Below, in pieces: positions 1 through 53,775 of a DNA stretch of 64,000 nucleotides. The notes beneath the pieces are model-generated. The model saw nothing but the letters and a program-made list of their open reading frames with translations, made no database searches and was not told the DNA's origin. The stretch is from Lachnospiraceae bacterium. GTDB taxonomy: Bacteria; Bacillota; Clostridia; Lachnospirales; Lachnospiraceae. Position 1 is the first letter of the stretch. Each line of letters begins with the position of its first letter. Where the stretch lies: contig AP025576.1 of assembly GCA_022845955.1 (NCBI GenBank), positions 6,138,001 to 6,202,000 of the forward strand, given 5' to 3'. Made by a program: the position numbers and the translations under genes.

Positions 1-919
1 CCGCTTTGCCCGCATCGGAATAACAGGTGGCAATATCCCCGGGGCGGCGGTCTCTGATAACATAAGGAATCGTAACGCCCGTTGCTTCTTCAAAATTCTT
101 TACGATATCCAGAACGCTGTAGCCTTTGCCTGTTCCCAGATTATAAATGTTCAGGCCGGACTTGTCTTCTATTTTCTTCAGCGCCTTGACATGGCCTCTC
201 GCCAAATCCACCACGTGGATGTAATCCCTCACGCCGGTACCGTCGTGGGTGTCGTAATCATTGCCGAATACATTCAGCTCCTTCAGCTTTCCTACCGCAA
301 CCTGTGTAATATAAGGCATCAGGTTGTTGGGGATTCCGTTGGGGTTTTCCCCGATAGTTCCGCTCTTATGTGCGCCGATAGGGTTGAAATAACGAAGCAG
401 GACTACATTCCATTCCGGATCCGCTTTCTGGATATCGGAAAGAATCTGCTCCAGCATGGATTTCGTCCAGCCATAAGGGTTGGTGCACTGTCCCTTGGGA
501 CATTCCTCGGTAATGGGAATGAAGGCCGGATCCCCGTAAACGGTGGCGGAGGAAGAGAAAATAATGTTTTTCACGCCTGCTTTACGCATCACATCCACCA
601 AAGTCAATGTTCCCGCAATGTTGTTTTCGTAATACTCCCACGGCTTGGCAACCGATTCGCCTACTGCCTTCAGCCCTGCAAAATGGATGCAGGAATCAAT
701 TTTTTCTTTTTTTAATATTTCACTCAGGGCATCCCTGTCTAAAATATCCGCCTTATAAAAAGGTACCTGTTTTCCTGTAATTGCTTCCACACGCTGCAGA
801 GATTTCTCGCTGGAGTTGCTGAGATTATCTAAAACAACCACTTCATATCCTGCATTCTGCAGTTCCACTACCGTATGACTGCCAATATAGCCGGCACCGC
901 CTGTTACTAAAATTGCCAT
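1..919 (-). CDS. galE: UDP-glucose 4-epimerase, 3' end outside window
   Basis: Extended SDR-fold epimerase interconverting UDP-glucose and UDP-galactose (Leloir pathway, cytoplasm). The translation starts [20 protein letters not shown], which carries the GxxGxxG NAD-binding motif, followed by an [11 protein letters not shown] block, SSSATVYG and the NPYGWTKS segment holding the catalytic Tyr-xxx-Lys. It continues through RYFNPIGAH and [10 protein letters not shown], all GalE hallmarks, and leaves the window before its C-terminus. The ATG at 919 has a GGAG Shine-Dalgarno that follows the recurrent leader hairpin described separately. It lies downstream of a sugar nucleotidyltransferase on the same strand, so a nucleotide-sugar role for the pair is likely. 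Confidence 0.97.
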
Positions 920-951
920 GGTCGCTCCTATCTGCGCACAAAGACGCCTAT
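920..951 (-). promoter_or_regulatory. leader hairpin next to RBS (galE copy)
   Basis: On the minus strand a weak GCG/CGC hairpin (934-936 with 945-947) is followed by CAGATAGGAGC and the galE ATG, with 14 nt between hairpin base and ATG. This is the weakest stem of five similarly placed copies (others near 1948, 4543, 46775 and 53740). The shared GCAGA-NN-GGAG arrangement and spacing are seen directly; a regulatory role is inferred. Confidence 0.45.
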
Positions 952-1029: not shown

Positions 1030-1947
1030 TTACCATAAAACATCCGGATAAACACCGTCCGCTTTCAGCCTGGCAATGGATTCCATAACAAAAGGCTTAT
1101 CTTCCTTGTAGGTTACCCCGAACCATTTATCCTTGGAAGAAAGCACTTCAACCGTTGCCTTTCCCTGCTGCAGAAGCTTATCCACCTCGATAGGCAGGAA
1201 GCATTCCGCTTTCATAGGATTTCCCGGCACTTCATTCGCAAAGAAGCTGTTGACGGCACTTTCCAGTTCATCCAGGATACTTGCGGAAAAGCCCCACATA
1301 TTCATGGAAACAGGGGTATCCAGGGGAAGGGGCACATAGGTGGCACCGTCGTCTTCCGTATATGCGGCACCCTCTGCCGTTTTCACGATTTTCGTCCGCT
1401 CCGCTATGGTCTTTAAGAATCCGTTTTCATCGGTTACACAGCAGCCTCTTGCTACGGATCCATTGTCGGTCAGCGTATTCCCCAGTTCATAACCAACCAT
1501 CGCGTAACGGAATTTCTCATCGTCCTCATGGGTGGTCAGAAATGTGTAAAGCGTCTGGAACGCACTTCTTCCATAATAATCATCCGCATTAATTACGGCA
1601 AAAGGCCCGTTTACCACTCCCTTGCAGCAGAGAATCGCATGTGCGGTCCCCCAGGGCTTCACCCTGCCGTCCGGAATCTGAAAACCTTCAGGAACCTTGG
1701 TAAGCTCCTGGAATACGTATTCCACTTCTATATGCTTGCTGACTCTGTCGCCCACGCATTCCCGAAAATCCTTTTCATTTTCCTTCTTAATAATGAAAAC
1801 GACCTTTTTGAATCCTGCCCTGACAGCATCAAACATGGAAAAATCTATAATCTTGTGCCCCTGCTCATCCACAGGGTCAATCTGTTTCAATCCGCCGTAA
1901 CGGCTTCCCATTCCTGCTGCCAGAATTACCAATACCGGTTTGTCCAT
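1030..1947 (-). CDS. NTP-transferase family sugar nucleotidyltransferase
   Basis: About 305 residues with the nucleotidyltransferase fold: an N-terminal LAAGMGSRYGGLKQ loop (the GxGxR...K phosphate-binding signature of glucose-1-phosphate nucleotidyltransferases), then INADDYYG carrying the metal-binding Asp pair, and WGTAHAIL. It probably activates a sugar-1-phosphate with UTP or another NTP; the substrate cannot be read from sequence. The longer upstream ORF is ignored because the ATG at 1947 has a strong GGGGAGC ribosome site after a leader hairpin. galE follows 110 bp downstream on the same strand, supporting nucleotide-sugar metabolism. Confidence 0.9.
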   Translation of the reverse strand: MDKPVLVILAAGMGSRYGGLKQIDPVDEQGHKIIDFSMFDAVRAGFKKVVFIIKKENEKDFRECVGDRVSKHIEVEYVFQELTKVPEGFQIPDGRVKPWGTAHAILCCKGVVNGPFAVINADDYYGRSAFQTLYTFLTTHEDDEKFRYAMVGYELGNTLTDNGSVARGCCVTDENGFLKTIAERTKIVKTAEGAAYTEDDGATYVPLPLDTPVSMNMWGFSASILDELESAVNSFFANEVPGNPMKAECFLPIEVDKLLQQGKATVEVLSSKDKWFGVTYKEDKPFVMESIARLKADGVYPDVLW

Positions 1948-1985
1948 ATCCTGCTCCCCTTCTGCGTGCTTTAACACGCTGCAAA
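1948..1985 (-). promoter_or_regulatory. leader hairpin next to RBS (nucleotidyltransferase copy)
   Basis: Minus-strand stem GCGTG/CACGC (1975-1979 with 1964-1968) with a six-base loop, followed by AGAAGGGGAGC and the ATG 16 nt from the stem base. Same architecture as the copies in front of galE, the rubredoxin-flavin reductase, the uroporphyrinogen-decarboxylase-like gene and a solute-binding protein. Confidence 0.55.
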
Positions 1986-3873: not shown

Positions 3874-4542
3874 CTATTCCACTTTCTTAAATTTATCCGC
3901 TCCCTGGCCGCAGACAGGGCATTTGAAATCAGCAGGCAGTTCATCGCCCTCATATACATAACCGCACACCTGGCATACCCATTTTCCCGTCTTTTTTCCC
4001 TGGAGTGCTTCGCTTTCATCCGTAACAGGCGCTCCGTCCACCTCGGGAAGATAGGTGGGGGCATTCTTAGGGGCTTTTCCTTTTACCACTTTATGATAAT
4101 AGGCATAGGTCATGGCATTATCCGGTTTCCCGTAGCTTTCGGCTTCTATGACTTCTCCCAGGAAAACCGTATGCGTCTCGGTTTCCATGGTATCTATCAC
4201 GCGGCATACCACGAAGCCGCAGGAATCCTTAATCACGGGAAGCCCCGCCGCCAGTTCATAATCCACCCCTTCAAACTTGTCATTTTCTTTGCTTGACTGG
4301 AAACCAAAGGTTCCTATCAGGGAAGGATCGGAATTCTCAGACAAGATGGAAAAGGCAAATTTCCCGGACTTATCAATACAGGAATTCGTATAGTTATTGT
4401 GGTTTACGCTCACAGCAATAGTGGCGGGATCCGATGTAATCTGCATTATACTGTTGGTAATGCATCCCACAGGGCGGTTTCCGTCCAGTGAGGTAGTGAC
4501 ATATACACCATAGGACATGTCTCTGAAAATCATAGTGTTCAT
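3874..4542 (-). CDS. hrb: flavin reductase-rubredoxin fusion (high-molecular-weight rubredoxin)
   Basis: About 222 residues. The first 160 form an FMN-binding flavin reductase-like domain (MSYGVYVTTS..., GCITNSIMQIT). The last 45 are a rubredoxin with two Cys-x-x-Cys knuckles, CQVCGYVY and CPVCGQG, which bind one iron. In Moorella and other clostridia this fusion (Hrb/NROR type) passes electrons from NAD(P)H to flavodiiron proteins or peroxide reductases for O2 and NO defence. The ATG at 4542 has a GGAG site next to a 6-bp leader hairpin; the longer ORF start lies inside that hairpin. No flavodiiron partner is present in the window. Confidence 0.93.
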   Translation of the reverse strand: MNTMIFRDMSYGVYVTTSLDGNRPVGCITNSIMQITSDPATIAVSVNHNNYTNSCIDKSGKFAFSILSENSDPSLIGTFGFQSSKENDKFEGVDYELAAGLPVIKDSCGFVVCRVIDTMETETHTVFLGEVIEAESYGKPDNAMTYAYYHKVVKGKAPKNAPTYLPEVDGAPVTDESEALQGKKTGKWVCQVCGYVYEGDELPADFKCPVCGQGADKFKKVE

Positions 4543-4578
4543 CTTTGCTCCTATCTGCGTGCTTCTGCACACGTATCA
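4543..4578 (-). promoter_or_regulatory. leader hairpin next to RBS (hrb copy, best example)
   Basis: Minus-strand stem GTGTGC/GCACGC (six pairs, one G-U) with an AGAA loop at 4557-4572, then AGATAGGAGC and the ATG, 14 nt from the stem base. The sequence CAGATAGGAGC is identical to the galE copy although the genes are unrelated. Confidence 0.6.
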
Positions 4579-5565: not shown

Positions 5566-5702
5566 GATAAAATACCTGATTAAAGCTTTCCCTTTCTTCG
5601 GGATCCCATACATTTATCGGTTCTTTCTCGCGTTTGGGTATCCTGTACCATGCCTTGTGCAGGATACCCAAACGCAAGAAAGAACCCTTTTATCAGGTAT
5701 GC
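5566..5702. repeat. nested inverted-repeat element
   Basis: Inner arms of about 27 bp (from GGTTCTTTCTCGCG to CGCAAGAAAGAACC, one mismatch) surround a 14-base loop. Outside them a second pair reads ATACCTGATTAAAG and CTTTTATCAGGTAT. Non-coding; it separates the SDR and MBL genes. The rest of the 5361-5736 gap shows only a degenerate copy of GTCTGAACTGTTAC at 5538-5551. Confidence 0.7.
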
Positions 5703-16096: not shown

Positions 16097-16663
16097 CTAT
16101 CCATTTTCCTCCATACGCCTTCTGGTATCCGCATCGATTCTTTCTCTCAGATGGAGAAGTTTTTCATCTCCTACAAAGTACGTTTTCCCATATTCCAGAT
16201 TAAAACCATAGTCAAAATCCGGCGGATTCTTTCCCTGGTTATGCTGAAGGATGGTCTCCGCCTTGTCCAGGGCTTTTATCAGTCTGGCTTCCGGGGTCGT
16301 TTCGTCATTGTATTCCTTCCAAAGCTTCAGGAAATGACTTTTCTGCGGTTCCGGAAGACAGGAAAAAGCCCTGTTGACTCCTTCCTCCTCCATCCGGTAT
16401 TTCTCTCCGGGATCGGGAAGCAGCGCTGCCGAGATATCGCCTTCGTACAACTCTCCCATATCATGAAGGAGAGCTGTCTCCAGCAGCTTAAGCCGATCCA
16501 GCCGCGGGTATTCCCATGCCACTGTCATAGCTGCCAGGGCCAGACGCCAGGTATGCTCCGCCGTACTTTCCTGCCTTCCCCGGCTGCTCCAGGCCGTACG
16601 GAGCACATTTTTCAGCCCCTCTGCCTCCCTGATAAAATCCAGACAATTATCCATTCTTTCCAT
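16097..16663 (-). CDS. HD-domain hydrolase (YfbR/HDDC2-like)
   Basis: About 188 residues. ESTAEHTWRLAL, then LLHDMGELYEGDIS (the HD doublet), and later KALDKAETILQH place it with HD-domain 5'-deoxynucleotidase or phosphohydrolase proteins of the YfbR/HDDC2 type, usually about 190 residues. Such enzymes dephosphorylate dNMPs with a divalent metal. The start at 16663 is chosen for its AGGAGAG site; an upstream in-frame Met lacks one. It lies 111 bp downstream of the aspartyl-tRNA synthetase on the same strand. Confidence 0.85.
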   Translation of the reverse strand: MERMDNCLDFIREAEGLKNVLRTAWSSRGRQESTAEHTWRLALAAMTVAWEYPRLDRLKLLETALLHDMGELYEGDISAALLPDPGEKYRMEEEGVNRAFSCLPEPQKSHFLKLWKEYNDETTPEARLIKALDKAETILQHNQGKNPPDFDYGFNLEYGKTYFVGDEKLLHLRERIDADTRRRMEENG

Positions 16664-16774
16664 TTTCTCTCCTGTCTGTGCGGACACCGCACCTTTTGCC
16701 GGAACCGTTTTTTCCGGTCTGCATTTTCAAAGACCCCCTAGGTTCCATCCGGCCAGTAATTGGAGTAACACGCT

Positions 16775-32861: not shown

Positions 32862-33890
32862 CTACTGATTGGCATACTCTTCTGCCGCCTGCGGCACCTC
32901 TTTCCGGTATACTTTGGAGAAAAGAAAGGGGGCAAATAAAACGCCGTTCAATACCAGAAGGATAAGTACATCCATCCAGGCTATAACCTGACCGCTGATC
33001 ACATCAGCGCTTCCTGCCAGCACGGCAATCAGATTGTTATTCAGGTAATGCATGATTACAGGTACCCAGATATTGCGGGTTTTCATCTGTGCATATCCGA
33101 AGAAAATAGCAAGTCCGGTACAGGTCAGAATTTGGCTGATAACGCTCTGCAGCCAGGTTTCCGGGCTGTAAAAAAACAGATTAATGGGCAGATGCCATAT
33201 TCCCCACAGGACACCGAGCAGAAGAACGCCTGCCCGTTTTCCGAATCTTTTCTGCAGCATAGGCTGGAAAAATCCGCGCCATCCGTATTCTTCACCAAAA
33301 AATGCGGTAAAAACAAGAAAGAAATTAATCGGCAGAGTTATCAGGCTGAGCAGAAGATACGGATTTCCCATCAGTGTCAGGAACGCTCCCGTCTCTCCGG
33401 CAATTACATAGCTGAAAAAGATACGCAGCATATATAAAACCAGAAAAAGCAGGACATAAAGCCAGGGCTTTCTCTTTTGTCCGTCACCCATGGCAAGGCC
33501 GTATTTTCTCCGTACCTCCTGTTTATTCAGCAATAAGAAAACCCACAAAATAAGGCTTCCTATAATAATAACATACTGGCTCAGGAGAGCAAACGGCACC
33601 TGCGGGAGAAACAGGCTGAGTGCAGAGGCGGCGGCCATTGCCCCTGTCAGAATTAAAAAGCCCGCATAAAACTTCACGGGGAGCTTCTCCCCCTTCTCCC
33701 GTGTCAGCAGGTAAGCAAGCATCACTCCGGCTGCCGGATAGAACATCTGTGCATTGGGGAATACGCTCACATCGTTTCCCCGGTAATAACTGATTCCCAT
33801 CAGAATACCCATTAACAGGGTCATACCGAAAGCGACTGCAACAAAAATCCAAAGCTGTTTCTTTTCTGTAACAGTTAATTTGTCCTGCAT
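32862..33890 (-). CDS. CPBP-family intramembrane metalloprotease
   Basis: 342 residues, about eight to ten membrane segments. The CPBP/Abi motifs are visible: FFGEEYGWRGFFQPML (EExxxR, motif 1) and GVLWGIWHLPINLFF (FxxxH-like, motif 2), then HYLNNNL. Related proteins process prenylated or peptide substrates, or give self-immunity to bacteriocins. It lies 37 bp upstream of the small XRE regulator on the same strand, possibly one operon. Confidence 0.9.
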   Translation of the reverse strand: MQDKLTVTEKKQLWIFVAVAFGMTLLMGILMGISYYRGNDVSVFPNAQMFYPAAGVMLAYLLTREKGEKLPVKFYAGFLILTGAMAAASALSLFLPQVPFALLSQYVIIIGSLILWVFLLLNKQEVRRKYGLAMGDGQKRKPWLYVLLFLVLYMLRIFFSYVIAGETGAFLTLMGNPYLLLSLITLPINFFLVFTAFFGEEYGWRGFFQPMLQKRFGKRAGVLLLGVLWGIWHLPINLFFYSPETWLQSVISQILTCTGLAIFFGYAQMKTRNIWVPVIMHYLNNNLIAVLAGSADVISGQVIAWMDVLILLVLNGVLFAPFLFSKVYRKEVPQAAEEYANQ

Positions 33891-34177
33891 ATGTAAATCC
33901 TCCTACTTGTTTTGCGGAGCAAAATGCAATTTCTTTAGAAATTTGCCCTCTGGCGAGCAGAGGATTTTCCTCCTTTTTCTTACATGGCCTGCCTGCGGCC
34001 GTGATGGTTTTCATTCCGGATCCTCAGACCGTACAGGTTGAACTTGCTCATGTTTTTACTTTCCATAAAATATCATATATTATATTTTGCTTAATGTCAA
34101 ATATATTTTACTTTTTGCAAGGTGGATTACTTGTATAATGTTATATAAAGTCTCATGCAAACGGGTAATATTGAGTA

Positions 34178-45718: not shown

Positions 45719-46774
45719 CTACTTTTCTATCCTTTTTACCAATGCCTTTCCTTCCTCTTCCGTACTGGCGCTAATCGAAAACATCACGCCTTCCGGTTTC
45801 AGATTTTCAAGCATACGATCCAGTTCCCCGGGTGCCACCTCAATCTGTATCCTTTTACCGGCATCCTGGATTTTCTTGAGCACAGGCAGCCAGTGGGAAG
45901 CCGTGGGCTGTCCCGCGCCGTAGACCCACTGAATGCCTTTCAGCTTATCAATAGCAAGCAGCCTGTCCAGGTGCTTCAGGGCATCCGGACCGTCCAGATG
46001 GTATATGCTGGCATCCAGGAAATCCAGCTCTTCCAGAAGCTCTCCCACTACCAGCTCTTCATACATCTGCGTGGATATCATACAGGAAAAATCACAGCAG
46101 GTAGGATACCATCTTCCCGGATGCCAGATACCCATCCAGCAGGTGCTGCCTTCCTGGTATTTGGTGGTCATGGTATACAGTTCTTCATAAATTTCCCGGA
46201 AAGCGGGAAGGAGATCCATAGCTGCCTTCCGGATAAATGCAGGCTGATCCAGGGTATCCATGCACAGCTCCTGCGGGCCTCTCATGGATACCAGCCCGTC
46301 CAGCCCCGGGTGGATATCCGTAACGCCCACCAGGTATTTCCCCTTACCATCCTCTACCGCGGCTTGGGTGATTTCAAGCATTTTCCGGTAATATTCATTC
46401 TGTCTGCATAGCAGAAAGCCCTGGTATTCCTCCACGTCCTCATCCGTGAGGAAGGGAACGGACCAACTGGTATCCTCTCCGAATTCCAGCTTGGTTCCGA
46501 AACAGGCCGCAAAATAGTCCGGTCCCAGGTTGGGATTCAGCGCAGGGAACGCTTCCCCTCCGTAATAGGTATTGCGCATTTCCCAGTTGCTGCTTTTTAT
46601 AATGTATTCGGTGTCCATCCATCGTTCCTTGAGGGAAGTATGGCGGCTTTCCGGCTTTTTCTCCTGTTTCGCTCTGGGCGCCCGGATGCTTACAAGAGGA
46701 CGGTCATGGTTTTCCATCGCCCAGTATTCCAGGTATCTTTTTCTGATTTTGTCCCAATTTTCACAATATTCCAT
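45719..46774 (-). CDS. uroporphyrinogen-decarboxylase-like protein
   Basis: 351 residues with URO-D/CmuA-type TIM-barrel features: an N-terminal WAMENHDRPLVSI, central YLVGVTDIHPGLDGL and SMRGPQELCMDTLD, and HLDGPDALKHLDRLLAI. URO-D-fold proteins in glycan or methyl-transfer clusters are methyltransferase-like enzymes of unclear substrate; true heme synthesis is unlikely because no other heme genes occur here. It is the last gene after YesN and YesM and has the RBS leader hairpin. Function unresolved. Confidence 0.78.
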   Translation of the reverse strand: MEYCENWDKIRKRYLEYWAMENHDRPLVSIRAPRAKQEKKPESRHTSLKERWMDTEYIIKSSNWEMRNTYYGGEAFPALNPNLGPDYFAACFGTKLEFGEDTSWSVPFLTDEDVEEYQGFLLCRQNEYYRKMLEITQAAVEDGKGKYLVGVTDIHPGLDGLVSMRGPQELCMDTLDQPAFIRKAAMDLLPAFREIYEELYTMTTKYQEGSTCWMGIWHPGRWYPTCCDFSCMISTQMYEELVVGELLEELDFLDASIYHLDGPDALKHLDRLLAIDKLKGIQWVYGAGQPTASHWLPVLKKIQDAGKRIQIEVAPGELDRMLENLKPEGVMFSISASTEEEGKALVKRIEK

Positions 46775-46810
46775 ATCTGCTCCCGTCTGCGTGAGATAAA
46801 CGCGTGTCAG
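46775..46810 (-). promoter_or_regulatory. leader hairpin next to RBS (URO-D-like copy)
   Basis: Minus-strand stem GCGT/ACGC (46800-46803 with 46789-46792), seven-base loop, then CAGACGGGAGC and the ATG, 14 nt from the stem base. Confidence 0.5.
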
Positions 46811-52338: not shown

Positions 52339-53739
52339 TTATTGGCCTAACGCTTCCGCTATCTGTTCCTCCAGATCCGCTATAAAATCCTCAGGGGTAA
52401 TCAGTCCTGTTAAAAGGAGTTCGCAGGTATCCTCCAGTGCCACAATCAGCTCCTGATTGTTCAGAGACCACTCAAATTTTGTGGTTGACTGGATTTTATC
52501 CAGGTTATCCGCATAGTGCTGGTAGCTTTCCGCCCGTGCTTCCACGGGATCCACCTTTTCCTTCAGCACGCTTAAGGATCCGAGTTCCGCATTGGCAATG
52601 TCTCTCGCTTCCAGAAAGCTTAAAAGAACCTTTTTGGAGTATTCCGCATATTTTCCTTTGGCGCTTACCGCGTAGCCGCCCATGGAACCGGTGCCGCCGG
52701 ATTCCGTCCAGTGTGTATCCTCCTCTTTGCCGGCCACGGTAAACGGATTATATTCAAAGTATCCGATATTGTCGCCGTAACCGCCTACAGCCGCGTCGTT
52801 AAAAAACCAGCTTCCGTTTATCAGCATGCCCGCCTGTCCGGTTTCCACCAGTTCAAAAGCCTGGCTGGCATTGGTATTCAGGGCGCCTTTGCCGATTAGG
52901 CCCATGGAAGTCAGTTCACTCAGCTTTTTGGCTGCTTCCAGATATTCCGGATCCGTAATTTTGGTGCTTCCGTCCTCCAGCCCTGTAAGCCCCAGAGGCT
53001 GTCCTTCCCCTACCACAGCCATATCGAACATCTGCAGCCCCGGCCATTTCTGTTGGGCAAACAACGCCAGCGGGATAATACCGTCCGCATTCAACGCTTC
53101 CACCACAGCCTTGAATTCTTCATAATTTTGAGGTGCCGACAAGCCAAGCCTTTCAAACACTTCCTTATTGTAAAATACTTCACAGCACTCCGGTACCGTG
53201 GAGCTGATAGCATAGAAATGGCCGTCCGCCGATTTTTTTACATCAAAGTTCCCTTCCAGATATTTGTCAAAAAACCCCGTTTCTTCAATTACAGAATCCA
53301 GTTCCGCCAGATCCCCCGATTTAATCAGGATATCGGTCAGCTGTCCGGTACATTCAAAGATATCCGGCAGTTCCCCCACTGCCGCCCTTGTCTTAAGAAC
53401 GCTGCCGTCGGAATCGGTCCTGTGTTCGATGTTGATCTTCAGATCCGGATATGTCTCCTTCATAATTTCCAGTGCCCTGTCCACCTGTGCAATGGCGCTG
53501 TCCGCATAATAAGTATAGATGGTCAGTTCCCCGGGAACCTCTCCCGTATCCGCCTGGGCTGTTGTCTTTGCCGGCCCGGATTCTGCACTATCGGTTTCCC
53601 CGCCCTGTGCTTCCGCTCCCGCCTCCTGGGACTGGGCCGCTTTGGATTCTCCGCCGTCCGCCGCCCCGCCGCAGCCTGCCAGTATTGTTGAAACAGCCAA
53701 TGCTGCCGCCAGAATAGATGCTGTCAGTTTTCTTTTCAT
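52339..53739 (-). CDS. ABC transporter sugar-binding lipoprotein
   Basis: 466 residues. Signal peptide with lipobox ILAGC near residue 22, an Ala/Glu/Ser-rich linker to ~65, then a family 1 solute-binding domain (LTIYTYYADSAIAQVDRALE; GMLINGSWFFND; GGYAVSAKGKY). Start at 53739 fits the signal peptide and follows the RBS leader hairpin. First gene of the importer operon linked to YesM/YesN and the URO-D-like enzyme. Confidence 0.93.
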   Translation of the reverse strand: MKRKLTASILAAALAVSTILAGCGGAADGGESKAAQSQEAGAEAQGGETDSAESGPAKTTAQADTGEVPGELTIYTYYADSAIAQVDRALEIMKETYPDLKINIEHRTDSDGSVLKTRAAVGELPDIFECTGQLTDILIKSGDLAELDSVIEETGFFDKYLEGNFDVKKSADGHFYAISSTVPECCEVFYNKEVFERLGLSAPQNYEEFKAVVEALNADGIIPLALFAQQKWPGLQMFDMAVVGEGQPLGLTGLEDGSTKITDPEYLEAAKKLSELTSMGLIGKGALNTNASQAFELVETGQAGMLINGSWFFNDAAVGGYGDNIGYFEYNPFTVAGKEEDTHWTESGGTGSMGGYAVSAKGKYAEYSKKVLLSFLEARDIANAELGSLSVLKEKVDPVEARAESYQHYADNLDKIQSTTKFEWSLNNQELIVALEDTCELLLTGLITPEDFIADLEEQIAEALGQ

Positions 53740-53775
53740 ACCTTCTCCCTTCTGCACGCATGTACCGTGCCTGCC
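53740..53775 (-). promoter_or_regulatory. leader hairpin next to RBS (binding-protein copy)
   Basis: Minus-strand stem GCACG/CGTGC (53766-53770 with 53754-53758), seven-base loop, then AGAAGGGAGAAGGT and the ATG, 14 nt from the stem base. Confidence 0.5.

Follow-up and report, generated by a model that had tools for sequence, protein, structure and literature searches.

Small repeats in bacterial genomes are usually tolerated between genes. REP/REPIN and IS200/IS605-derived repeats are short palindromic units with many copies, hairpins near their ends and a tetranucleotide (for example GGAG or GTAG) at the foot. ERIC repeats are longer, and we know of no ERIC or Correia repeat placed at a Shine-Dalgarno (SD) sequence. 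Intercistronic hairpins that stabilise a 5′ end, such as the one before gapA of B. subtilis, lie upstream of the SD. The BOX elements of Streptococcus pneumoniae are described as small modular repeats with predicted stem-loops and variable numbers of tandem internal modules; their size differs between genomes, they can affect downstream genes, and the table of the paper counts 16 between convergently oriented genes and 70 with a gene downstream (PMC3049150), hence BOX is not locked to an SD. The same paper presents ERIC and Correia as hairpin repeats that, once transcribed, can introduce sites for RNase cleavage (PMC3049150).

The window analysed here is a stretch of 64,000 nucleotides from the 7,291,680-base genome of a Lachnospiraceae bacterium. 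A sequence-only reading had pointed to a small GC hairpin before five unrelated genes; all five are present, on the minus strand (Table 1), and a sixth, with a GTGCGG/CCGCAC stem before an HD-domain gene, had been missed. The spacing given in that reading is correct, with 14 nt from stem base to ATG for hrb, galE, the URO-D-like gene and the lipoprotein gene and 16 nt for the nucleotidyltransferase gene. It had given the tail as GCAGA-NN-GGAG; GGAG is indeed common to the copies, but the form actually present is (A/G)GA-N2-GGAG, with N3 in the nucleotidyltransferase copy. Pairing had been judged kept in four copies and weak in galE. In single-sequence folding the hrb, nucleotidyltransferase and HD-domain copies form the proposed hairpin, the lipoprotein copy folds into a variant of it and the galE hairpin is not the minimum-energy fold, but the URO-D-like copy is weak as well (z +1.45, with 194 of 200 shuffles folding as well). 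URO-D-like is the earlier reader's label for the gene at 46772, which has no Pfam match at 1e-5. One scan rule applied to the whole window gave seven matches, five of them clear members (the galE stem is too weak for the rule), and none in the reversed window.

Table 1. Hairpin copies before start codons and the family D copy in the window
Feature	Positions	Strand	Elements
hrb copy	4540..4572	-	hairpin 4557-4572 (GTGTGC agaa GCACGC); AGATAGGAG 4548-4556; ATG 4540-4542
galE copy	917..947	-	weak hairpin 934-947 (GCGT ctttgt GCGC, one G-U); AGATAGGAG; ATG 917-919
nucleotidyltransferase copy	1945..1979	-	hairpin 1964-1979 (GCGTGT taaa GCACGC); AGAAGGGGAG; ATG 1945-1947, 16 nt from stem base
HD-domain gene copy	16661..16692	-	hairpin 16678-16692 (GTGCGG tgt CCGCAC); AGACAGGAG; ATG 16661-16663
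URO-D-like gene copy	46772..46803	-	hairpin 46789-46803 (GCGT ttatctc ACGC); AGACGGGAG; ATG 46772-46774
sugar-binding lipoprotein copy	53737..53770	-	hairpin 53754-53770 (GCACG gtacatg CGTGC); AGAAGGGAG; ATG 53737-53739
family D copy	33898..33974	-	AGGAGGA 33968-33974, hairpins, GCATTTTGCTCCGCAAAA 33910-33927, AGGAGGA 33898-33904, ATG (A at 33890)

Elsewhere in the window, a 72-nt palindrome-like stretch at ~5617-5688 (L005, 2570-2641) scores 34.9 and 33.2 bits on its two strands with the mir-129 model, below the gathering score of 48.6, and is probably just a strong hairpin.

The hairpin belongs to a dispersed family with a fixed place and orientation. The pattern CACGCAGANNGGAG matches the genome nine times, compared with once for the reversed pattern; seven of the nine matches lie behind a hairpin and before an ATG and two do not. 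With RCACGCAGANNGGAG, one base longer, and up to two mismatches, there are 399 matches versus 121 for the reversed pattern. A covariance model was built from ten copies and ends at GGAG, which leaves the start codon outside the model. Run on the 7.29 Mb genome, with 150 of 4344 candidates scored, it produced at least 65 matches at E ≤10, and the further copies at start codons that the sequence-only reading had called for were found: in 29 of the 30 best matches a start codon that opens an ORF of 60 aa or more follows 11-21 nt from the stem base (14 nt in 19 of the 30). The ten training copies, all picked at starts, lie among these 30; without them, 19 of the remaining 20 matches have a start codon and ORF at the expected place, and the lone miss is the window's nucleotidyltransferase copy, whose match was cut short. 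As a baseline, any RGANNGGRG is followed by a start and ORF in 147 of 578 cases (864 kb). Hairpins abutting (A/G)GA-N2-GG(A/G) stand at 11 of 739 called starts in the window's genome, and at 28 of 382 and 22 of 375 in two sister genomes, G012 and G002. All such matches, on or off starts, number 51, 72 and 77, respectively (13, 14 and 17 reversed), where the densities in G012 and G002 may be high as part of the stretches came from contigs known to have matches. The reversed-pattern counts, the window scan and the share of model matches at start codons reject a chance origin of the hairpins.

Hairpins of a GCCGC...GCGGC type, followed by AGGATGGAGG, GGCAGAATG(A/G)GAGG or similar, occur just before starts in L231, L145 and L236 (G012), L260 (G002) and L065:5040 (window's genome); they possibly form another related family.

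Among 299 genomes drawn from the family Lachnospiraceae, 25 have model matches at E ≤0.001, and in a phylum sample of 299 the window's own genome is the only one at that threshold (25 candidates scored per genome in both cases). A strict pattern extended to the ATG matches 68 stretches across 84,980 named species. Sixty-four of them are in Lachnospiraceae or in genera that we take to be placed there, with carriers including Eisenbergiella tayi, E. porci, Ca. E. merdavium, Anaerocolumna, Lachnoclostridium phytofermentans, Clostridium sp. KNHs205, an Acetatifactor, a Roseburia and further MAGs; the other four come from Collinsella phocaeensis (one), a MAG named only Bacillota (two) and a MAG named only Clostridia (one). 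Viral contigs have one match for each of the two patterns searched. The hairpin, which the sequence-only reading had not recognised as a named RNA family, has no match in Rfam 15: at the gathering score only one tRNA is recovered (L221), and none of the 11 sub-threshold matches at a lax threshold is at the hairpin. No description of this repeat was found in listings of the open-access literature. In a genome of another genus (G299; L314, L315) there are 16 model matches, many equal in score, with GCCCGC/GCGGGC stems; these copies carry GTGAAATT/AATTTCAC hairpins and are perhaps a recent burst of the repeat.

The hairpin before the start codons (hairpin A) is the start-proximal half of a dispersed repeat of ~66 nt, family A, that has its own SD. 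The sequence-only reading was right about a real hairpin in a fixed place and missed that it is half of a larger dispersed repeat with its own SD, gained and lost between close species. The full unit is intact in the sister species, where a presumed old SD is followed, after ~5 nt, by a second hairpin (hairpin B); across genera the unit runs hairpin B (core TGAAA...TTTCA), (CUCCC)UGAUUUGUAU, hairpin A, AGAUGGGAG, ~5 bases and the start codon. The repeat is common in G002 and G012, which gave the most model matches, and occurs there in tandem arrays; one array has five 66-bp copies at 96%. A hairpin B could be identified in 87 of the 140 flanked modules, and its letters differ between genera (CGTGAAATC/GATTTCACG, TATGAAAGA/TCTTTCATA), differences that are no covariation test because hairpin B was searched for by pairing.

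Modules flanked by TGATTT number 62 in G012 and G002 together (892 kb; reversed control 5): 43 stand at a start with an ORF, seven are followed by another module and 12 by neither. Chance would account for about five of these 12 (reversed control 3 + 2), which leaves some genuine modules that are away from starts or precede a short ORF. Well-formed modules with neither a start plus ORF of at least 60 aa nor a next module were seen at L235:8420 and L239:13574 (G012) and at L150:14911 and L255:5020 (G002).

On the far side of the unit, an SD-like tetramer stands 3-16 nt ahead of the hairpin B TGA in 31 of the 53 outermost copies that have hairpin B, versus 4-9 of 53 in control windows ending at least 11 nt upstream; some of the 53 are perhaps tandem copies whose hairpin A has decayed, in which case the left-SD count would be inflated (35 more copies are tandem and 52 are without hairpin B). 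The repeat has SD-like sequence on both sides, for which an element's own copy and a target-site duplication look the same. Read by eye, the SDs at the ends form a direct repeat and not the terminal inverted repeats of a MITE.

In the window's genome one place matches the frame TGATTTGTAY...AGANGGGA with up to three mismatches, and the 5′ flank is unconserved. These two results count against the reading proposed below, in which the copies in the window are presumed remnants of the unit.

The structure of hairpin A appears to be selected. To avoid circularity, the covariation set comprised 39 sites of the two sister genomes selected by their flanks alone, with loci that came from the hairpin pattern or the model (L158-L225, L300-L319) excluded. 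In these sites 91.5% of the cells are paired versus 80.1% after shuffling, and the covariation score is 0.360 versus 0.174, a value reached by none of 500 shuffles. Pairing falls to 15-50% when the arms are slid out of register. Compensatory changes in the stem, which the sequence-only reading had named as decisive, are present: five of the six stem pairs have changes on both sides, and the third pair is G-C in 19 sites and C-G in 12. Selection on hairpin A presumably acts at the RNA level.

Orthologous starts show retention as well as loss. The hairpin of the window's genome is retained at 4 of 6 starts in E. tayi, 1 of 3 in G003 and 2 of 3 in G011, or 7 of 12 in total (one E. tayi site resembling coding sequence, L285-18586, was left out); the other five comparisons, spread over the three species, have no hairpin. 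The nucleotidyltransferase hairpin is kept in E. tayi and G011. For the URO-D-like gene, E. tayi has a stronger stem, GCGTGC acg GCACGC, in the same place, and for the lipoprotein gene the same 3′ arm, by reading, pairs with a different 5′ arm in E. tayi. The E. tayi orthologue of the HD-domain gene has no abutting stem, and only one of nine genus-mate homologues of hrb (in G003) has a hairpin, with other letters. These comparisons indicate that the hairpin is kept with compensation, yet is often lost.

Turnover is also seen between G002 and G012. At eight orthologous starts (77-97.5% protein identity; one further pair resembling coding sequence, L246-14161, was excluded) the module is in both genomes at one, and at no fewer than two of the other seven the partner has a different hairpin before the SD. 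The leader of one gene contains ~215 bp of modules in G002 and is short in G012; this best case of an empty site for family A spans several modules, and no clean single-unit empty site was found for the family. The intergenic DNA of these species turns over fast anyway, which counts against reading the repeats as mobile cassettes.

Two side observations concern these leaders. In L148 (G002) the inserted modules follow directly on an ATG that resembles the start of the orthologous gene in G012; read by eye, they stay open in the frame of that ATG for ~40 codons, possibly a new small ORF. A third kind of start-proximal module, TTTATTG.TGGCAGTATC followed by a hairpin and (A/T)ATGCAGG(A/G)GG, is present in L147 and L148 (G002) and L229 (G012); at one orthologous start its place is taken in G002 by another hairpin before the SD.

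A second repeat bounded by SDs, family D, is also represented in the window, and its letters look unrelated to those of family A. Thirteen exact copies of GCATTTTGCTCCGCAAAA occur in the window's genome, one of them in the window (reversed control 0); with up to one mismatch there are 23 matches in G003 and 12 in E. tayi, and the family is absent from 10 of 13 genomes of the genus. We examined 23 distinct copies from the three genomes (48 matches): the right GGAG is present in all 23 and an SD-like sequence on the left in 20; a further unit follows in six and a start codon in 16. In the window's genome an array of five 53-bp units (L322-L326) precedes a GTG start. Family D provides presence and absence with a readable empty site, a property looked for in MITEs. 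In all seven genes for which an orthologue was found, the orthologue has no copy and has GGAG before the ATG. The E. tayi orthologue of the gene behind the window's copy carries a plain GGAGGA instead; in the opposite direction, E. tayi has two units where the gene in the window's genome (98.6% protein identity, L342 versus L361) keeps a plain AAGGAGG. Family D has the same plan as family A, and this favours the view that more than one repeat family targets SDs. Both families seem to be small mobile repeats that land on SD sequences and bring a new SD.

We consider it fairly probable that the family A repeat is a self-contained ribosome-binding cassette whose insertion is tolerated since it restores the SD, and that selection on the RNA maintains hairpin A. 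The 12 of 62 modules off starts and the eight of nine hrb homologues lacking the hairpin speak against this, but are compatible with that degree of probability. The repeat would spread by insertion and tandem duplication at SD sequences, the SD being the likely insertion target. Its right end is itself an SD at the correct distance, so the gene would stay translatable, with the SD of the repeat probably used for translation. In the window's species most copies would be old, with hairpin A and the SD alone left, and these parts would be retained because a structured 5′ edge of the ribosome-binding site matters.

Folding narrows what such an edge might do. In the window's genome SDs behind the hairpin are 0.50 unpaired versus 0.46 in other genes (p 0.39), and in G012 they are 0.37 versus 0.47 (p 0.057), if anything less accessible; replacing the 5′ arm by A leaves the predicted accessibility of the SD unchanged. 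Insulation of the SD by the hairpin thus receives no support from folding. Neither does masking of the old SD, or a switch between SDs: left and right SDs are alike in predicted pairing (0.17 versus 0.20, left lower in 8 of 14, in one folding set; 0.28 versus 0.37, left lower in 18 of 36, p 0.29, in a second).

A wider proposal, to which we give somewhat less than even credence, is that there exists a class of mobile ‘ribosome-binding-site cassettes’, comprising at least two unrelated families, for which the SD is the landing site, with an SD at the right end and an anti-SD CUCC inside; the initiation of many genes would have been rewired and no gene killed. Within an array, pairing of the anti-SD with one or other of the flanking SDs could turn the number of units into a heritable dial of expression, although the folding done lends this pairing switch no support. 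What makes the proposal worth stating is that both families are bound to the part of a gene's control region under the tightest constraint and seem to substitute their own ribosome-binding site for that of the gene. If this is true, the initiation of translation is being rewritten wholesale, one gene after another, at the pace at which species diverge, and the copies are a natural experiment on how a hairpin beside the SD affects initiation. For annotators of these Lachnospiraceae, the hairpin repeat is a marker of start codons.

Among the other explanations, the one that fares best, while still unlikely, is a cassette for mRNA processing or stability, in which an RNase cuts in UGAUUUGUAU and hairpin A protects the new 5′ end, leaving the SD free. 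An AU-rich stretch directly 5′ of a stem is the usual setting of RNase Y or E sites, and a conserved one is present in the relatives; in the window's genome, however, this stretch is unconserved though the hairpin is often kept, and the copies are not enriched behind co-directional genes (27 of 33, baseline 522 of 663).

Rather less credible is a cis-regulatory hairpin through which a trans-acting factor, either an RNA-binding protein or a small RNA, would control the translation of many genes. The fixed distance to the start codon, the covariation and the conserved UGAUUUGUAU...AGAUGGGAG frame around hairpin A in relatives are what such a hairpin would have, but the frame is unconserved in the window's own genome, and gain and loss between close species are high. 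We scanned 40 downstream proteins, cut at 450 aa (those of 28 of the 32 site genes of the window's genome, together with nucleotidyltransferase and galE, and 10 of 36 from G012; none of the 28 G002 genes is included). They comprise solute-binding proteins, other transporters, glycosidases, glycosyltransferases, epimerases, tRNA synthetases, regulators and others. Solute-binding proteins recur among the genes of the window's genome and glycosyltransferases among the ten from G012; on reading, no coherent regulon was seen in the 40. The suggestion of the sequence-only reading that the hairpin is a control element or the target of an RNA-binding protein was not substantiated, given variable loops and stem letters, 40 proteins with no common function and an SD accessibility like that of other genes. 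CsrA, whose motif ANGGA lies in a hairpin loop or unpaired at the SD, was rejected by reading, as GGA does not fall within the loop; two positions ahead of GGA, A is present in 36% of 33 sites of the window's genome and 12% of 64 sister sites, and T, C or G in the others. A conserved leader peptide was rejected too: an NTG is in frame with the TGA of TGATTT in 40 of 73 copies, with tandem copies non-independent.

About as unlikely as the trans-acting reading is one in which the hairpins matter as single-stranded DNA: the repeats would be non-autonomous, related to IS200/IS605 or REP elements, mobilised by a Y1 transposase that cleaves at GGAG, and without a role in mRNA. The unit does contain a hairpin close to either end and, internally, a CUCC(C) complementary to the SD, and Y1 transposases (PF01797) are found in 7 of 12 genomes, among them the window's genome, E. 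tayi, G003, G011 and G036. Against this, none was found in G002 and G012, a weak argument as both are draft assemblies. Neither repeat stands at the ends of the 11 Y1 loci read by eye and with five short motifs of both families, which gave two isolated matches (L352, L353), none at an end. Moreover, the window's genome keeps hairpin A with changed or relocated stems while the rest of the unit is unrecognisable. A RAYT as the mover is likewise unsupported, the ends of the repeat being unlike those of the 11 Y1 loci.

Last, a palindromic DNA operator for a repressor, suggested by an inverted repeat of 14-17 bp close to starts, is highly improbable and largely refuted by covariation, in which the arms change together, and by the relocation of one arm; the distance to the SD is fixed besides.

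The cassette reading can be set against the systems described at the outset. Family A resembles REP/REPIN in its short palindromic multicopy units, hairpins near the ends and GGAG-like foot, and differs in that no linked Y1 transposase was found, that the repeat supplies an SD to the gene and is positioned at the start codon, and that it is abundant in two draft genomes in which no Y1_Tnp was found. With ERIC and Correia it shares the hairpin repeats; Correia elements are delimited by inverted repeats, unlike family A. A hairpin of the gapA type belongs to a single locus with no repeat or insertion, whereas here a dispersed family is seen. The closest likeness of plan is to BOX as described in PMC3049150: small modular stem-loop repeats with a variable number of tandem modules (66-bp units in up to five copies and 53-bp units in five). 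Unlike BOX, nearly all well-matching copies here are in one orientation and at one distance from the start, and this tie to the SD and the start codon is what sets the repeat apart from modular repeats of the BOX type.
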